DNA from: Paenibacillus sp. H1-7
GTDB taxonomy: Bacteria > Bacillota > Bacilli > Paenibacillales > NBRC-103111
Direction of reading: 5' to 3'
Length of the DNA: 64,000 bases
Assembly: GCF_022354825.1 (NCBI RefSeq)
Contig: NZ_CP031168.1
Coordinates: 4,031,501 to 4,095,500 of the forward strand
Shown here: positions 7,266 to 49,666 of the stretch, one piece after another
How positions within the stretch are numbered: the stretch's first letter is position 1
Layout: the number at the start of each line of letters is the position of its first letter
Notes under the pieces: model-generated
What the model was told of the DNA's origin: nothing
The model's database searches: none
What the model saw: only the letters and a program-made list of their open reading frames with translations
Program-made: the position numbers and the translations under genes

Positions 7266-7973
7266 ATGAATATAAATATGGTTATGGACGAGCTCGAGGC
7301 TCTCGGCAAAGAACGAACTAAGAAAATTTACATATCCAATGGGGCGCATGAACCGCTTTTTGGTGTAGCAACAGGCGGGATGAAGCCCATCGCCAAAAAA
7401 ATCAAAAAAAATCAACCGTTAGCCGAGGAGCTCTATAATACGGGGAATTACGACGCCATGTACTTTGCGGGTGTCATTGCTGATCCGAAGGCCATGACCG
7501 AGGCAGATTTTGAGCGTTGGATCGATGCGGCTTATTTTTTCATGCTATCCGATTATGTAGTTGCAGTTACCCTGGCGGAAACTGATATTGCGCAAGAAGT
7601 TGCCGATAAATGGATCGCAAGCGGAGAAGAACTGAGAATGTCTGCGGGCTGGAGCTGTTACTGCTGGCTGTTGGGGAGTCGGCCGGACAGTGAATTTTCT
7701 GAAAGTAAATTGGTCAAGATGCTTGACTTGGTTGAACAAACGATTCACGATTCCCCTGAACGAACCAAATACGCTATGAACAATTTTATTTATACGGTAG
7801 CAATATCCTATAAGCCTCTCCATGATAAAGCGGTTAGGACCGCAATGGCAGTGGGTCCAGTAGAAGTCAACCGGGATAAGGCCAAAAGCAAGTTTCTTAA
7901 CGCTTCCGAAAATATACAGAAGGCAGTAGATAAAGGACAAGTTGGTTTCAAGCGAAAATATGTAAGGTGTTAA
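7266..7973 (+). CDS. DNA alkylation repair protein-like (HEAT-like fold)
   Basis: A 235-residue protein resembling the DNA alkylation repair family (AlkD-like, pfam08713): the N-terminal G-x-KPIAKKIKKNQPLAEEL (residues ~39-55) and helix pairs with ADFERWID and YAMNNFIYTVAISY match that family's layout. AlkD enzymes excise alkylated bases using HEAT-like repeats; whether this divergent subgroup is a glycosylase is not certain. No strong Shine-Dalgarno is visible before ATG 7266 (GGAAGTG about 5 nt upstream). It is monocistronic. Confidence 0.65.
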   Translation: MNINMVMDELEALGKERTKKIYISNGAHEPLFGVATGGMKPIAKKIKKNQPLAEELYNTGNYDAMYFAGVIADPKAMTEADFERWIDAAYFFMLSDYVVAVTLAETDIAQEVADKWIASGEELRMSAGWSCYCWLLGSRPDSEFSESKLVKMLDLVEQTIHDSPERTKYAMNNFIYTVAISYKPLHDKAVRTAMAVGPVEVNRDKAKSKFLNASENIQKAVDKGQVGFKRKYVRC

Positions 7974-8111
7974 GCAATTCAGGCTTAAAGCTTAGGGGGA
8001 CGCTAGCGAGTCAGCCAGCTGCTCCCTTTTTTACTGGCTGGAATGCATCTCTGTATTTGATCTTCTATTAGTAGAAGTCACTACCGTAATTTACTCAATA
8101 AGATCGAATAG

Positions 8112-10177: not shown

Positions 10178-10410
10178 AAAACCATTGTACTAAGATATCG
10201 CTACAAATCAAGTCTTTAGAAAAATACCACCATATTCTCCGATTTTTAAGTGAAATGTTTTGATTTTGATTTTGTCTCCACCATAAAATCCGAATACCCT
10301 TTTTATTTAGAGATGGAGCGATTATCTTTTTACTTGAAGGGTATAGGAAGGATATCGTAATGTATAAATATGTAATATAAATTATTATTATACGATAAGG
10401 AGGGCTATCA

Positions 10411-31509: not shown

Positions 31510-32040
31510 ATGACTATCTCATGGAAGACCGCGATGTTACCAGCCGCTGTGGCGCTCAGCTTTGTACTAATCATCCCCGCCATTGCTAACGAGCCGGCAC
31601 CTGCCGAACGGCCGCAGCTGGCGCTGCCAAGCGAGATGGCGTTTCAGCTGCCAATGAACAATTACTGCAGCCAGGAAGACGACTTGGACGTTTCGTTTCA
31701 ATTGTCCAACGCATCGGATGAAGCCGCGAATGTAACTCTGTTCTTTTACAAGCAGGACGGAACCTCGTTCACAGAAGAAGGGACGTCTTATCGGGATATC
31801 GGATCGACGATCGTTCCCGGGAAGCCCACGACTATCGCGGCGAACGGAACACAGCTGTACCATATTAATTTCGGCAATCATAAAACATGCGGCGAGCGGA
31901 TCTATTTGGGCAAGATCAAAGTCAATTCAGGCCAAGTATCTTTATTGGCACGAGGATGGGTTAATTCGACTGATGGAGTCGAGCCGATTACAGTCAATGA
32001 TAATAAACGGTTTGAGCTGATCGCTCCTACCAAGCCATAA
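31510..32040 (+). CDS. Secreted protein of unknown function
   Basis: A 176-residue protein with a cleavable signal peptide (LPAAVALSFVLIIPAIA, cut after residue ~27) and a beta-rich mature part (LDVSFQLSNASDEAANVTLFF, split as LDVSFQLSNA and ANVTLFFYK) resembling an immunoglobulin-like or COG1470-type fold. Two cysteines (NNYCSQ and HKTCGE) could form a disulfide bond. Likely extracellular. It is flanked by terminators, so it is monocistronic. No family was recognised with confidence. Confidence 0.65.
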   Translation: MTISWKTAMLPAAVALSFVLIIPAIANEPAPAERPQLALPSEMAFQLPMNNYCSQEDDLDVSFQLSNASDEAANVTLFFYKQDGTSFTEEGTSYRDIGSTIVPGKPTTIAANGTQLYHINFGNHKTCGERIYLGKIKVNSGQVSLLARGWVNSTDGVEPITVNDNKRFELIAPTKP

Positions 32041-45938: not shown

Positions 45939-45950
45939 AGATGATGGATC

Positions 45951-45976
45951 AAGAGCCCTCGAGGCTCTTTTTTTTC
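45951..45976 (+). terminator. Terminator after the MATE gene
   Basis: AAGAGCC-CTCGA-GGCTCTT followed by T7. Confidence 0.9.
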
Positions 45977-46146
45977 GTTAATCAGGCTGACTTAGAAATG
46001 TAAGAGGGGGGAGATTAGTTTTAAACTACTGCCGATAAAAATAGATTTTGTAAAAAAGATTGGAGAAAATGATTAATAGCATTAAATATTAGGTTCATTA
46101 ATCAAGTGAATAAGATGTTAATATTGTGCAAATGTAAGTGAATAAA

Positions 46147-46201
46147 TTGCATCCTAAACAGTGAACAGGATATAGTATGATAGGAAATGTAAGCGCTTTT
46201 T
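46147..46201 (+). promoter_or_regulatory. Promoter and cre-like site upstream of the orphan binding protein gene
   Basis: TTGCAT (46147-46152) and TATAGT (46171-46176) are 18 bp apart. TGTAAGCGCTTTTT (46188-46201) matches the catabolite-responsive element consensus at 12 of 14 positions (the final CA is TT) and sits just downstream of the probable transcription start, where CcpA would block transcription. The rest of the 336-bp gap (45977-46146) is AT-rich with no recognised feature. Confidence 0.55.
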
Positions 46202-46274
46202 TACCCATTCAAAGTATGTAATGCCAGTCCGATTTACCATGTAAAAGGCGGTTAACTTAAGAGGGGGAACAAGC

Positions 46275-47591
46275 ATGAAGAAAAACGTAGCAAAGATGGT
46301 CTCACTATCTCTAGGTTTGGTCATGTTAGTAAGCGGTTGCAGCGGAAGCGGCCAAGCACCATCATCCGCCCCGGCAGACACAAGTACGCCCAAAGCCAGC
46401 AATGAACCGGTGACGCTCATTTTTTTCACGGCGCAAAACTCTGTTTATGCAGATGAAAGCGGGTTCGAGAATGAGATCGGGCAATACATCAAGAAGAAAT
46501 TCCCCAATGTAACGATTCAGCATATTCATAAAGGAAAAGGCCAAGATTACGCCGATCTGGTCGCGGCAGGAACAATTCCGGACATCGTGCTGGAGTCCAA
46601 GAGCAATATTTTATCCCGTATCAAAGAATTTGACTTGGCTCTCGATTTGTCTGAGCTGATCAAGAAGCATAATTTCGATCTGAACCGAATCGATGATGCG
46701 GCGCTTGCACAGGTGCGTAACGCCAACCCGGAGGGGCAGCTGTGGGGATTGCCGTTTACTCTCAGTAATATCGTCATGTTCTACAACAAAGATTTGTTCG
46801 ATAAATTCGGCGTTCCGTATCCGAAAGACGGTATGACATGGGATGAAGTGTACGATATTGCGAAGAAAATGTCGCGAACGGTGGACGGAGTGGATTATAA
46901 AGGTCTGTCTGCGCATCCGGGTGTGATGATGGGTTATAATCAGCTGTCGCTCAATCCTTTGGATTTGAAGGAGAACAAAGCGGCTATCAATACCGAGAAG
47001 TGGAAGCAGCTAATCGAAAATTTCAAACGGTTCTATGATATTCCAAGCAACGCATATACGAATATCGATGACTTCCCTAAAGGTCAGACGGCTATCGGTG
47101 TCCATGTTGCAGAGAAGGTAACAAGCTGGTACAACGCCAACAAAGATTTGAACTTCGATCTCGCGTCTCCGCCTTCCTTCAAAGAGCTGCCCAATACCGG
47201 CATGCAGCCTAATACATATTCGCTTTTCGTAACGAAGAACTCGAAATATAAAGATCAAGCCTTCCAGATTGTCCAGCACTTATTGTCGGAAGAAGTCCAG
47301 TCCGAGCTGTCCAAGCAGGGGATCGTGACTCCGCTCAAGAGCAAGCCGGTCCGCGATTTGTACGGTCAAAGCTTGCCGCAGCTCAAAGGCAAAAACACCG
47401 GTGCCGTGTATTACAGCAAAAATGCTCAACCGCCGGCTGCCCGTGCTAACGGACTCGTAGATTACAACGTGAATACGGCCAAAATTTTCGACAACATCTA
47501 TAAAAGCAGCATGGATGTCAATTCGGCTATCCGCGCTGTCGAGGAAGAATCCAACATTGCCATTCAGCAGCTGGTGAATCAGAAGAAGTAA
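46275..47591 (+). CDS. Extracellular solute-binding lipoprotein (orphan)
   Basis: A 438-residue family 1 binding protein with lipobox MLVSGC (Cys22) and a Ser/Pro/Ala linker. VTLIFFTAQNSVY starts lobe one, GLPFTLSNIVMFYNKDLFDK (~155-174) and FPKGQTAIGVH are typical of sugar receptors, and SKYKDQAFQIVQHLLSEEVQ of the hinge C-terminal part. No permease or ATPase gene adjoins it; it is bracketed by terminators. It may feed a transporter encoded elsewhere or serve a sensor kinase. The cre-like promoter site suggests carbon control. Confidence 0.9.
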   Translation: MKKNVAKMVSLSLGLVMLVSGCSGSGQAPSSAPADTSTPKASNEPVTLIFFTAQNSVYADESGFENEIGQYIKKKFPNVTIQHIHKGKGQDYADLVAAGTIPDIVLESKSNILSRIKEFDLALDLSELIKKHNFDLNRIDDAALAQVRNANPEGQLWGLPFTLSNIVMFYNKDLFDKFGVPYPKDGMTWDEVYDIAKKMSRTVDGVDYKGLSAHPGVMMGYNQLSLNPLDLKENKAAINTEKWKQLIENFKRFYDIPSNAYTNIDDFPKGQTAIGVHVAEKVTSWYNANKDLNFDLASPPSFKELPNTGMQPNTYSLFVTKNSKYKDQAFQIVQHLLSEEVQSELSKQGIVTPLKSKPVRDLYGQSLPQLKGKNTGAVYYSKNAQPPAARANGLVDYNVNTAKIFDNIYKSSMDVNSAIRAVEEESNIAIQQLVNQKK

Positions 47592-47594
47592 CGG

Positions 47595-47623
47595 AAAAAA
47601 GCAGCCTTCGGGCTGCTTTTTTG
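47595..47623 (+). terminator. Terminator after the orphan binding protein gene
   Basis: AAAAAAGCAGCC-TTCG-GGCTGCTTTTTT is a perfect stem with a UUCG tetraloop. Its right half is duplicated at 48258-48280. Confidence 0.92.
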
Positions 47624-47625
47624 TG
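47604..47625 (+). repeat. Direct repeat, copy 1 (terminator right half)
   Basis: The 22-bp sequence GCCTTCGGGCTGC plus T6 and GTG recurs at 48258-48280 with one extra T, flanking the AT-rich 47626-48257 segment. Confidence 0.7.
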
Positions 47626-47802
47626 GTAATCACACATAGGGCAATTGGATTCATTCGTTTTAATGCTAATGATATAATAATGTAGGAAATGGCATTGTAA
47701 TATGGAAAATTAACCATATAGTGTATATAGAGTCATTCGGATGGGATTTGAATAACTGAGTTTAATAATCCAGAAAACATTGATTGGTGGTTAGTGACAA
47801 GT

Positions 47803-48123
47803 ATGTTTGAAATTATTGACTTTAAAAGTGGGAAAGTTGTTTTAAATGATCTGGATTTTGATCCGAACCTATCTTACGAAGAGCAAATTTGGTCATTTAA
47901 GGAAGATATTCTTCAAGTTCGATACCATAATGGATTTATATTGGATGTCGGATGGTACCCGGAATTCAATCTCGAGATTGGCAGTTTTAATATAGTTGTA
48001 GTACAGATGGATGACTGGTTAAATCCTATTTTCGAAAGGCGAACGCAAGATCTCCATAAATTATATAGCTGCATAATTGAAGCTATTGATGTAGCCAAAG
48101 CAGCACATTTTAATTCTTGTTAA
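47803..48123 (+). CDS. Hypothetical small acidic protein in AT-rich insert
   Basis: A 106-residue soluble protein: MFEIIDFKSGKVVLNDLDF, then SYEEQIWSFKEDILQVRYHN, GFILDVGWYPEF and a C-terminal helix. The aromatic, acidic layout recalls small immunity-type proteins from polymorphic toxin systems, but this is an impression only and no toxin gene adjoins it. ATG 47803 is used (GTG 47794 is the alternative; GGTGG lies upstream). The gene is clearly more AT-rich than its neighbours and lies between two copies of a terminator sequence, so it may be acquired. Confidence 0.6.
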   Translation: MFEIIDFKSGKVVLNDLDFDPNLSYEEQIWSFKEDILQVRYHNGFILDVGWYPEFNLEIGSFNIVVVQMDDWLNPIFERRTQDLHKLYSCIIEAIDVAKAAHFNSC

Positions 48124-48257
48124 GCTTCTTTCTAATTCTTTTTTTCATTTGTTCACCCATCGTTAGAATCAACTGAAAGTACACGGTTTTTAATTATACC
48201 ATCTTTGGACTGTAGAATTCTTTTTTAAAATTTCAATTTAATATTACGGTAATAATG

Positions 48258-48280
48258 GCCTTCGGGCTGCTTTTTTTGTG
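48258..48280 (+). repeat. Direct repeat, copy 2 (terminator relic)
   Basis: GCCTTCGGGCTGC plus T7 and GTG, the duplicate of 47604-47625. The left arm of the hairpin (AAAAAAGCA) is missing here, so it is unlikely to terminate efficiently. Confidence 0.7.
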
Positions 48281-48330
48281 TATAAATTATTTTATGCAGT
48301 TAAACAAGCAACTAATTTTTAGTTAGCATC

Positions 48331-48359: not shown

Positions 48360-48376
48360 CCAAACTAATTGAAAAA

Positions 48377-48530
48377 GGATCTTCGGGGCAGGGTGCAATT
48401 CCCGACCGGCGGTAAAGGGTCGTACGTCATGACCCGCAGCCCGCGACTCGTTCATCGTGTTAGCCGCGATGCACGACTGATTTGGTGAAACTCCAAAGCC
48501 GACGGTATAGTCCGGATGGGAGAAGGTCAA
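48377..48530 (+). ncRNA. FMN riboswitch (RFN element)
   Basis: The conserved RFN segments occur in order: GGATCTTCGGGGCAGGGTG, ATTCCCGACCGGCGGT, CAGCCCGCGA, then GGTGAAACTCC, AAGCCGACGGTATAGTC and GGATGGGAGAAGG. The ends GATCTTC and GAAGGTC pair as P1. It senses flavin mononucleotide and normally shuts off riboflavin synthesis or uptake genes. The next gene encodes an EamA-type transporter, implicating it in flavin transport. Confidence 0.95.
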
Positions 48531-48600
48531 AACAAGTTTGTAGTTTGGTGCGTTCACTTTGATGTGAAAAAACGTTCCAGATCCAAGCCTGTTTCAGTAT

Positions 48601-48637
48601 GCCCCGTTGTCATTATGATAACGGGGCTGACTTCTTT
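48601..48637 (+). terminator. Riboswitch expression-platform hairpin
   Basis: GCCCCGTTGTCAT and ATGATAACGGGGC form a stem of up to 13 bp (one G-U) followed by TGACTTCTTTC. It lies 70 nt after the FMN aptamer and 30 nt before the ribosome binding site, fitting FMN-dependent transcription termination. Confidence 0.7.
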
Positions 48638-48676
48638 CGAAGCTTCCTTTTCAAAAATAAGGAGGTTGGATTGGAT

Positions 48677-49666
48677 ATGGAAAATGTATCATCGATTAAC
48701 CCGTCCGTACGGCAAGAGCCGTCCCGCACGGGAATCCGCAACGGAGTATGGCTGGTTGCACTGGGAGCTGCACTGTGGGGCGTAGACCCGCTATTCCGCA
48801 TTTTGCTGCTTAAGTATTTTACATCGACTCAGATCGTACTTATCGAACACGTGCTTTTGCTATTTTACTCCGTACCGATATTGTGGCTGTACCGTAAATC
48901 GCTCCGCGGCTTGAACCTGCGCCATATTGGTGCATTGCTGTTTATATCCTGGGGCGGCTCTGCTATCGCGACGATCATGTTCACTTCAGCTTTTGCGCAT
49001 GGTGATTTGAACGGCGTACTATTGCTGCAAAAGCTCCAGCCATTGTTCGCCATCCTGATGGCAAGATGGATTTTGAAGGAAATGCTTCCGGCACGGTTTT
49101 TCATTCTGGTTATTGTGGCTCTGGCGGGCACGTACTTGCTGACGTTCGGCATAACGTTTCCTTTTGACGGACTTTCCCGTTTTGGGGTGATCGGGGGTCT
49201 GTTATCGATAGGTGCTGCAGCTTTGTGGGGCGGATCTACGGTTATGGGGCGTTTGCTGCTTGATAAAATGCCGTTTGAAGCCGTTACGGCGCTGCGCTTT
49301 ACGCTAGCCTTGCCGCTGCTGTTCGCAACTGCCTGGGTTGGAGGAGAGAGCTGGAACTGGCCGGCTCAACCGACCGAATGGTTCGCCGTTTCGGTAAATA
49401 TGCTGCTGCAAGCCTTTTTGCCCGGATTATTGAGCTTGCTCCTGTACTACAAAGGACTCTCAGGGACCAAAGCATCGTATGCCACACTAGCGGAGCTGTT
49501 CTTTCCGGCCATCGGTGTGCTGGTGAATTGGCTTGTATTCCAACAGCAAATTACAGTGGCGCAAGTCGCCGGCTTCCTGTTGATCTGGTTCATGCTGTTC
49601 CAGCTGTCCAGGCAGCAGGACGGGAAGCAAGAGAGCACCGTAGCGATGCAGCAAGCAGCAAGTTAA
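48677..49666 (+). CDS. EamA/DMT family transporter, candidate riboflavin/flavin-precursor transporter
   Basis: A 329-residue ten-helix drug/metabolite transporter with two EamA repeats (~22-155 and ~170-315). Landmarks: GVWLVALGAALWGVDPLF (helix 1), HGDLNGVLLLQKLQPLFAIL (helices 3-4) and ALWGGSTVMGRLLLDKMPFE opening repeat two. It is the only gene under the FMN riboswitch, so flavin or precursor uptake is inferred. Predicted EamA-type flavin transporters (RibN, ImpX) are known elsewhere. Start is ATG 48677 or TTG 48671 (GGAGG five nt before the TTG). Confidence 0.85.
   Translation: MENVSSINPSVRQEPSRTGIRNGVWLVALGAALWGVDPLFRILLLKYFTSTQIVLIEHVLLLFYSVPILWLYRKSLRGLNLRHIGALLFISWGGSAIATIMFTSAFAHGDLNGVLLLQKLQPLFAILMARWILKEMLPARFFILVIVALAGTYLLTFGITFPFDGLSRFGVIGGLLSIGAAALWGGSTVMGRLLLDKMPFEAVTALRFTLALPLLFATAWVGGESWNWPAQPTEWFAVSVNMLLQAFLPGLLSLLLYYKGLSGTKASYATLAELFFPAIGVLVNWLVFQQQITVAQVAGFLLIWFMLFQLSRQQDGKQESTVAMQQAAS

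Follow-up and report, generated by a model that had tools for sequence, protein, structure and literature searches.

According to the parts of the reports drawn on here, orphan immunity genes of interbacterial toxin systems occur in the T6SS arrays of Vibrio (PMC5361080), in the rAID arrays of the Bacteroidales (PMC12247911) and in the esaG/tipC arrays of the Firmicute T7SS (PMC9484751). For Enterococcus, the section of the report used here describes plasmid DNA inserted halfway into the rho-independent terminator that follows an rRNA operon, where an ISL3-family insertion sequence is held responsible for the 8-bp duplication (PMC11702846). In this study, we describe a locus of Paenibacillus sp. 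H1-7, within a window of 64,000 nucleotides taken from a genome that consists of a single contig of 8,375,342 bases, at which an AT-rich segment with one intact open reading frame, P0001, lies between two copies of the loop and right half of a terminator hairpin (Table 1). We give about an even chance to the reading that the segment is a horizontally shared scrap of DNA carrying an intact orphan gene of immunity type, and that a single illegitimate event left the repeat behind.

Table 1. Layout of the locus, in positions of the window
Feature	Position	Strand	Basis
Extracellular solute-binding protein gene, 438 aa, SBP_bac_1	46275..47591	+	ORF list, domain search
Intact intrinsic terminator hairpin, 12-bp stem, TTCG loop, holding most of repeat copy 1	47595..47622	+	
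Repeat copy 1: hairpin loop and right half, T6, GTG	47604..47625	+	
AT-rich segment between the copies, 632 bp	47626..48257	no strand	
P0001 ORF, 106 aa, putative immunity-type family without a Pfam or NCBIfam model	47803..48123	+	
Repeat copy 2: same bases as copy 1 plus one extra T, left arm missing, weak hairpin	48258..48280	+	
FMN riboswitch, RF00050	48375..48531	+	
EamA-family transporter gene, 3' of the riboswitch	48599..49666	+	mechanical ORF; true start may be later

A duplicated terminator half around an AT-rich segment

The initial annotation had placed a repeat of GCCTTCGGGCTGC, a T-run and GTG on both sides of about 630 AT-rich bases with a single 106-residue frame, and both observations hold. 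The exact core of the repeat is 19 bp (47604-47622 and 48258-48276) and its extended form 22 or 23 bp, the two copies differing by one T; the second begins 654 bp downstream of the first. The shared 19-mer occurs twice in the entire genome, both times at this locus, a count that is unchanged when two mismatches are allowed, and it has no occurrence in 12 congeners, while GGGCTGCTTTTTT by itself is counted seven times, this locus accounting for two. When the 12 strong terminators that a script detected in the window are compared with one another, 65 of the 66 pairs have no more than 10 nt in common over loop, right arm and tail, and the one pair that reaches 12 nt is the same hairpin read on both strands, as judged by its coordinates. 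The genome-wide counts and the comparison of terminator pairs rule out a chance repeat, and a genuine local duplication is supported. Exact direct repeats of at least 16 bp within 3 kb are as such not rare (44 in the 475 kb made up of the window and related loci, two of them in the window), many being concentrated in a few repetitive loci. A longer, imperfect repeat extending leftward into ACGG was also considered, and its score in an anchored comparison was matched by 17% of random insert positions.

The segment has a GC content of 31.5%, against 48.2% for the window, and the P0001 frame, read from its GTG, is with 33.9% the lowest of 66 window ORFs (those of at least 90 aa kept by the script), which fits a foreign origin. 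With regard to its non-coding DNA, the AT-richness is nothing special and no greater than upstream of the binding-protein gene (45939-46274, 33.9% GC); another non-coding stretch of the window, 10178-10410, has 29.2%. Similarity to the DNA of congeners starts at 48309-48310, 3' of the second repeat copy, and 95 bases past that copy begins the FMN riboswitch, followed by the EamA transporter gene. The riboswitch before an EamA gene (48375-49666) recurs by eye in the congeners G002, G006, G007, G009 and G011, and the transporter behind it is possibly a riboflavin transporter. A short minus-strand frame, MGEQMKKRIRKKLNKN (48110-48160), overlaps the end of P0001 and has, by eye, a TATAAT box upstream; it resembles a gene start that has been broken off, and the segment may therefore be a patchwork.

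P0001 and the loci of its homologs

P0001 is probably a real gene, because comparison with its closest homolog, from Paenibacillus doosanensis (66% identity), gives a dN of 0.22 and a dS of 2.94 (NG86), with 22, 20 and 49 differences at the three codon positions in 102 codons. These values show a protein that has been under purifying selection over most of the divergence between the two. The frame may start at ATG 47803 (106 aa) or at GTG 47794 (109 aa); by eye no clear ribosome-binding site precedes it, and the seven promoter matches stand at the chance level of 6.9 expected.

Searches of 104 family genomes recovered relatives of P0001 in 15, and those of 13 genus genomes in 2, both counts including its own genome; the alignment of all 15 other matches with P0001 has seven invariant columns, among them D, GWY and W..P. 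A match in Tenacibaculum (L064), which is the end of a 386-aa ORF of unrelated look, was rejected as a homolog and is not among the 16 aligned members. No match above cut-off to P0001 was obtained in Pfam, NCBIfam, PADLOC or PHROGs, a named Imm family above the curated cut-offs of Pfam and NCBIfam included; its sole Pfam row, Gemini_AL1_M, fell below its cut-off, and the only strong domain match among the 16 members belongs to a fusion with a Cys_rich_CPCC domain and lies outside the shared domain. There was no match in phage records and no confirmed one in viral contigs, and the two matches in plasmids were weak and covered only part of the query (63% and 59%). An AlphaFold model built from two sequences (pLDDT 78.6) predicts strands and a long C-terminal helix. 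The searches with this model by Foldseek, with nothing at E <=0.001 in PDB and BFVD (best PDB E 0.59), and by VIA-align, with a best Z of 5.3 where the tool cautions that a Z below 8 may mean only a common arrangement, yielded no confident structural match, including to a known immunity-protein fold; a chain of a T6SS effector-immunity complex stood at rank 21 in the latter (Z 3.8). Separately, the frame ITEFNNPENIDWWLVTS upstream had been taken by eye for an Imm33-like relic, an idea that was dropped when BLASTP gave no alignment and Pfam no such domain.

It is the company of the homologs that points to an immunity-type role for P0001, as judged by gene neighbourhood, since several of them lie in toxin/immunity loci. 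Toxin or immunity domains occur within about 4 kb at no fewer than 6 of the 15 other homolog loci, as a raw count. They are Tox-PL-2 and an ankyrin protein (G031), an Imm33-like protein (G050), Imm53 (G074), Imm33 (G047), the fusion to Cys_rich_CPCC (G063), a domain that we take to be linked to immunity, and the Rhs locus of P. doosanensis. At eight further homolog loci (G062, G042, G027, G052, two in G067, G029 and G072) the scan took in one or two neighbours, and none of these had a known toxin or immunity domain that scored above cut-off; neighbours were scanned at every locus but G045. For the immunity-like look ascribed to the protein at the outset, the support comes from the toxin and immunity genes near its family and not from any match to a Pfam or NCBIfam Imm model.

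In P. doosanensis, the core-end repeat of an Rhs gene with RHS_repeat and Rhs_assc_core above cut-off recurs twice beyond that gene, and the frame that covers the first of these additional copies matches Rhs_assc_core below cut-off; there follow two transposase-like genes (by reading), a 158-aa gene without a domain, and the homolog. The contig (L041:2-9953) has small immunity-type genes beside the Rhs gene and the two additional core-end copies, which are identical over 59 and 22 bp, and is apparently a tip/immunity array broken by insertion sequences. In the genome of the window, the Rhs core query has a single match, which lies about 670 kb from P0001 and in its C-terminal part resembles a CDI-type nuclease domain at a score below threshold; no link between this distant match and P0001 was found. 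There is no cognate toxin gene beside P0001, its neighbours on either side being transport genes, for the solute-binding protein and the EamA transporter.

Origin of the arrangement

The congeners were drawn from a genus set of 13 genomes, that of the window being included as the only one of its species. EamA relatives occur in eight congeners, and in four of these (G002, G007, G009 and G011) MATE and EamA genes are close together with other reading frames in the interval between them. By reading, these frames include a NUDIX-like gene (G002) and a cysteine-rich frame (G007, G009 and G011). The binding-protein ortholog, found in three congeners (G007, G009 and G011), is 80.5-82% identical as a protein and adjoins the ortholog of window gene 31510-32040; it lies about 6.5 kb upstream of MATE in G007 and 8.6 kb in G009, and on a separate contig from MATE in G011. 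In the window, the binding-protein gene is 14 kb from gene 31510-32040 and on the other side of MATE. Because of these other frames and this different gene placement, the MATE-EamA interval is to be regarded as variable, and the binding-protein gene as displaced in one lineage or the other. As the repeat copies differ by one T, the event that duplicated them seems to be recent beside the congener dS of 2.9, on the assumption that the second copy is unconstrained.

It had been proposed that an element entered the terminator of the binding-protein gene and duplicated 22 bp. The local duplication stands, and the insertion of a discrete element is not supported: an empty site, with a single uninterrupted terminator, was found in none of the congeners that have the MATE-EamA interval, the four carrying other genes there; a recombinase gene is absent from the 632-bp segment and its ends; no inverted repeat of at least 12 bp lies at those ends; and the search of the genome for a second copy of the site led back to this locus.

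The arrangement is also open to another account, in which the binding-protein gene moved here, with or without the ORF, the half-terminator repeat arose on that occasion, and the 632 bp are not an insert at all. The different position of the orthologs across MATE agrees with such a move, as do the flank 3' of the ortholog in G007 and G009, where there is no such terminator, and the non-coding DNA upstream of the binding-protein gene, which is AT-rich like the segment. However, no exact repeat of at least 16 bp within 3 kb flanks the binding-protein gene, and the move may be of earlier date and have no connection with the repeat, so that we regard this larger moved unit as rather unlikely.

The hairpins of the two copies bear on a further alternative, that of two independent terminators sharing one common hairpin sequence, the second of them weak and serving the 106-aa gene. 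The first copy folds with -19.8 kcal/mol (z -4.9) and the second with -6.2 kcal/mol over 41 nt (z -0.5) or -5.4 over 27 nt; the hairpin of the second copy has five pairs in all, three of them G-C, and adds only two of G-U type beyond these. The loss of the left arm from the second copy, which had been remarked on from the sequence, is thus borne out for most of the arm. A consensus scan, on the other hand, lists the second copy as terminator-like and does not list the first. The 19-mer is also widespread outside the genus, with 51 exact occurrences in 50 stretches of viral contigs, one contig having it twice, 1.1 kb apart, with full hairpins at both, and the congener G006 has a near-identical hairpin. 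Yet such hairpins normally carry the left arm that copy 2 lacks (at least two further strict pairs in 43 of the 51 viral occurrences, or in 49 when G-U pairs are counted, as read from the rows), the identity of the two copies continues past the T-run into GTG, and the genome and the 12 congeners offer no other copy, as counted above. We conclude that copy 2 is a truncated duplicate of the hairpin, probably a weak terminator, and consider that two independent terminators, which would have undone the idea of a duplication and for which the paired viral hairpins speak, are an improbable explanation.

In islands with attachment-site repeats at the 3' ends of genes, one end has the full site, and a half site that has been displaced marks the opposite end. 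The same geometry at this locus would agree with site-specific integration of a small element with the terminator hairpin as its attachment site, and one homolog locus, L076 of G067, a genome of another genus, has an 18-bp direct repeat on its two sides; these 18 bp are the invariable end of a longer repeat (about 83 bp) that contains a hairpin. Such integration is nevertheless very unlikely in view of the missing recombinase ORF and terminal inverted repeats, of a 19-mer found nowhere else in the genome, and of the homolog loci, 0 of 15 of which are flanked by a repeated terminator half (read from the repeat listing); the repeat of G067 is, moreover, another sequence, and as an exact 18-mer is absent from the genome of the window. 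That minimal immunity-gene cassettes lacking a recombinase are moved in trans and use hairpins at gene ends as attachment sites, with an intact hairpin left on one side and half a hairpin on the other, and with the hairpin-bearing repeats around the G067 homolog as a second form of the same attachment habit, strikes us as barely credible.

The repeat of G067 deserves description in its own right. The ends of its units, CTAACGGAAAC.ATAG and TAACGGGCAG, are constant, whereas the hairpin between them varies; units were located at L076:6238-6322 and 8022-8104 (with a diverged unit near 7536-7620), L131:8134-8216, L132:8897-8978 and L135:2730-2811. Most of them separate co-oriented small genes, a P0001 homolog among these, in the manner of a cassette array whose borders they would form. 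As an exact pattern, CTAACGGAAACNATAGTTGAA was found in 10 of 104 family genomes, of which one is a congener (G008), and not in the genome of the window. This repeat may be integron-like or another mobile repeat; the literature listings consulted on Paenibacillus cassettes or palindromic repeats showed no mention of it.

A proposed history and its relation to known systems

In the reading that we favour, that of a shared scrap of DNA with an orphan immunity-type gene, a break or a stalled replication fork at the hairpin would have been followed by the joining of foreign or displaced DNA at the break, and the right half of the hairpin would have been copied a second time. Either the arrival of the gene or a rearrangement that placed it beside the binding-protein gene could have left the right half doubled in this way, and the segment would have come to lodge in the variable interval between the MATE gene and the FMN riboswitch with its EamA gene. 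No dedicated enzyme would be needed, as a break at the hairpin and re-copying of its distal half may suffice. The P0001 protein, if expressed, would probably act by binding, and thereby blocking, a toxin domain that other bacteria deliver, whether of Rhs type or similar.

The locus adds an unnamed and sparsely distributed family to the pool of likely toxin-immunity genes, one copy of which survives outside a toxin locus. Should many such strays prove to be flanked by scraps of terminators, then it would be worthwhile to examine whether terminators act as landing sites in the transfer of single genes, for which this one case is insufficient.

With regard to the islands at gene 3' ends, the segment described here differs in being tiny, in having no recombinase and in having no other copy. 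It would resemble the Enterococcus case, as far as the consulted section of that report describes it, in an insertion inside a terminator hairpin with a short direct repeat flanking it, and differs in that the duplication there is 8 bp and attributed to an ISL3-family insertion sequence, whereas the repeat in the window is about 22 bp and no insertion sequence is present (PMC11702846). The Rhs tip/immunity locus of P. doosanensis (NZ_JANYUY010000069.1) is similar in that it contains the closest homolog, 2 kb after the last of the three Rhs core-end repeat copies; it stands apart in that the surroundings of P0001 in the window yielded no Rhs sequence. From the orphan immunity genes of Vibrio, Bacteroidales and Firmicutes, to the extent that the parts of the sources used here describe them, P0001 differs in being single, outside a toxin locus or array, and without a recombinase; its host is Gram-positive, its closest homolog is linked to Rhs, and its toxin partner and protective function are putative. 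It is like them, within the same bounds, in having no toxin gene beside it and in belonging to a patchy family with homologs in toxin/immunity loci. Orphan immunity genes and their transfer are already well described, and P0001 would be a new member of that kind.
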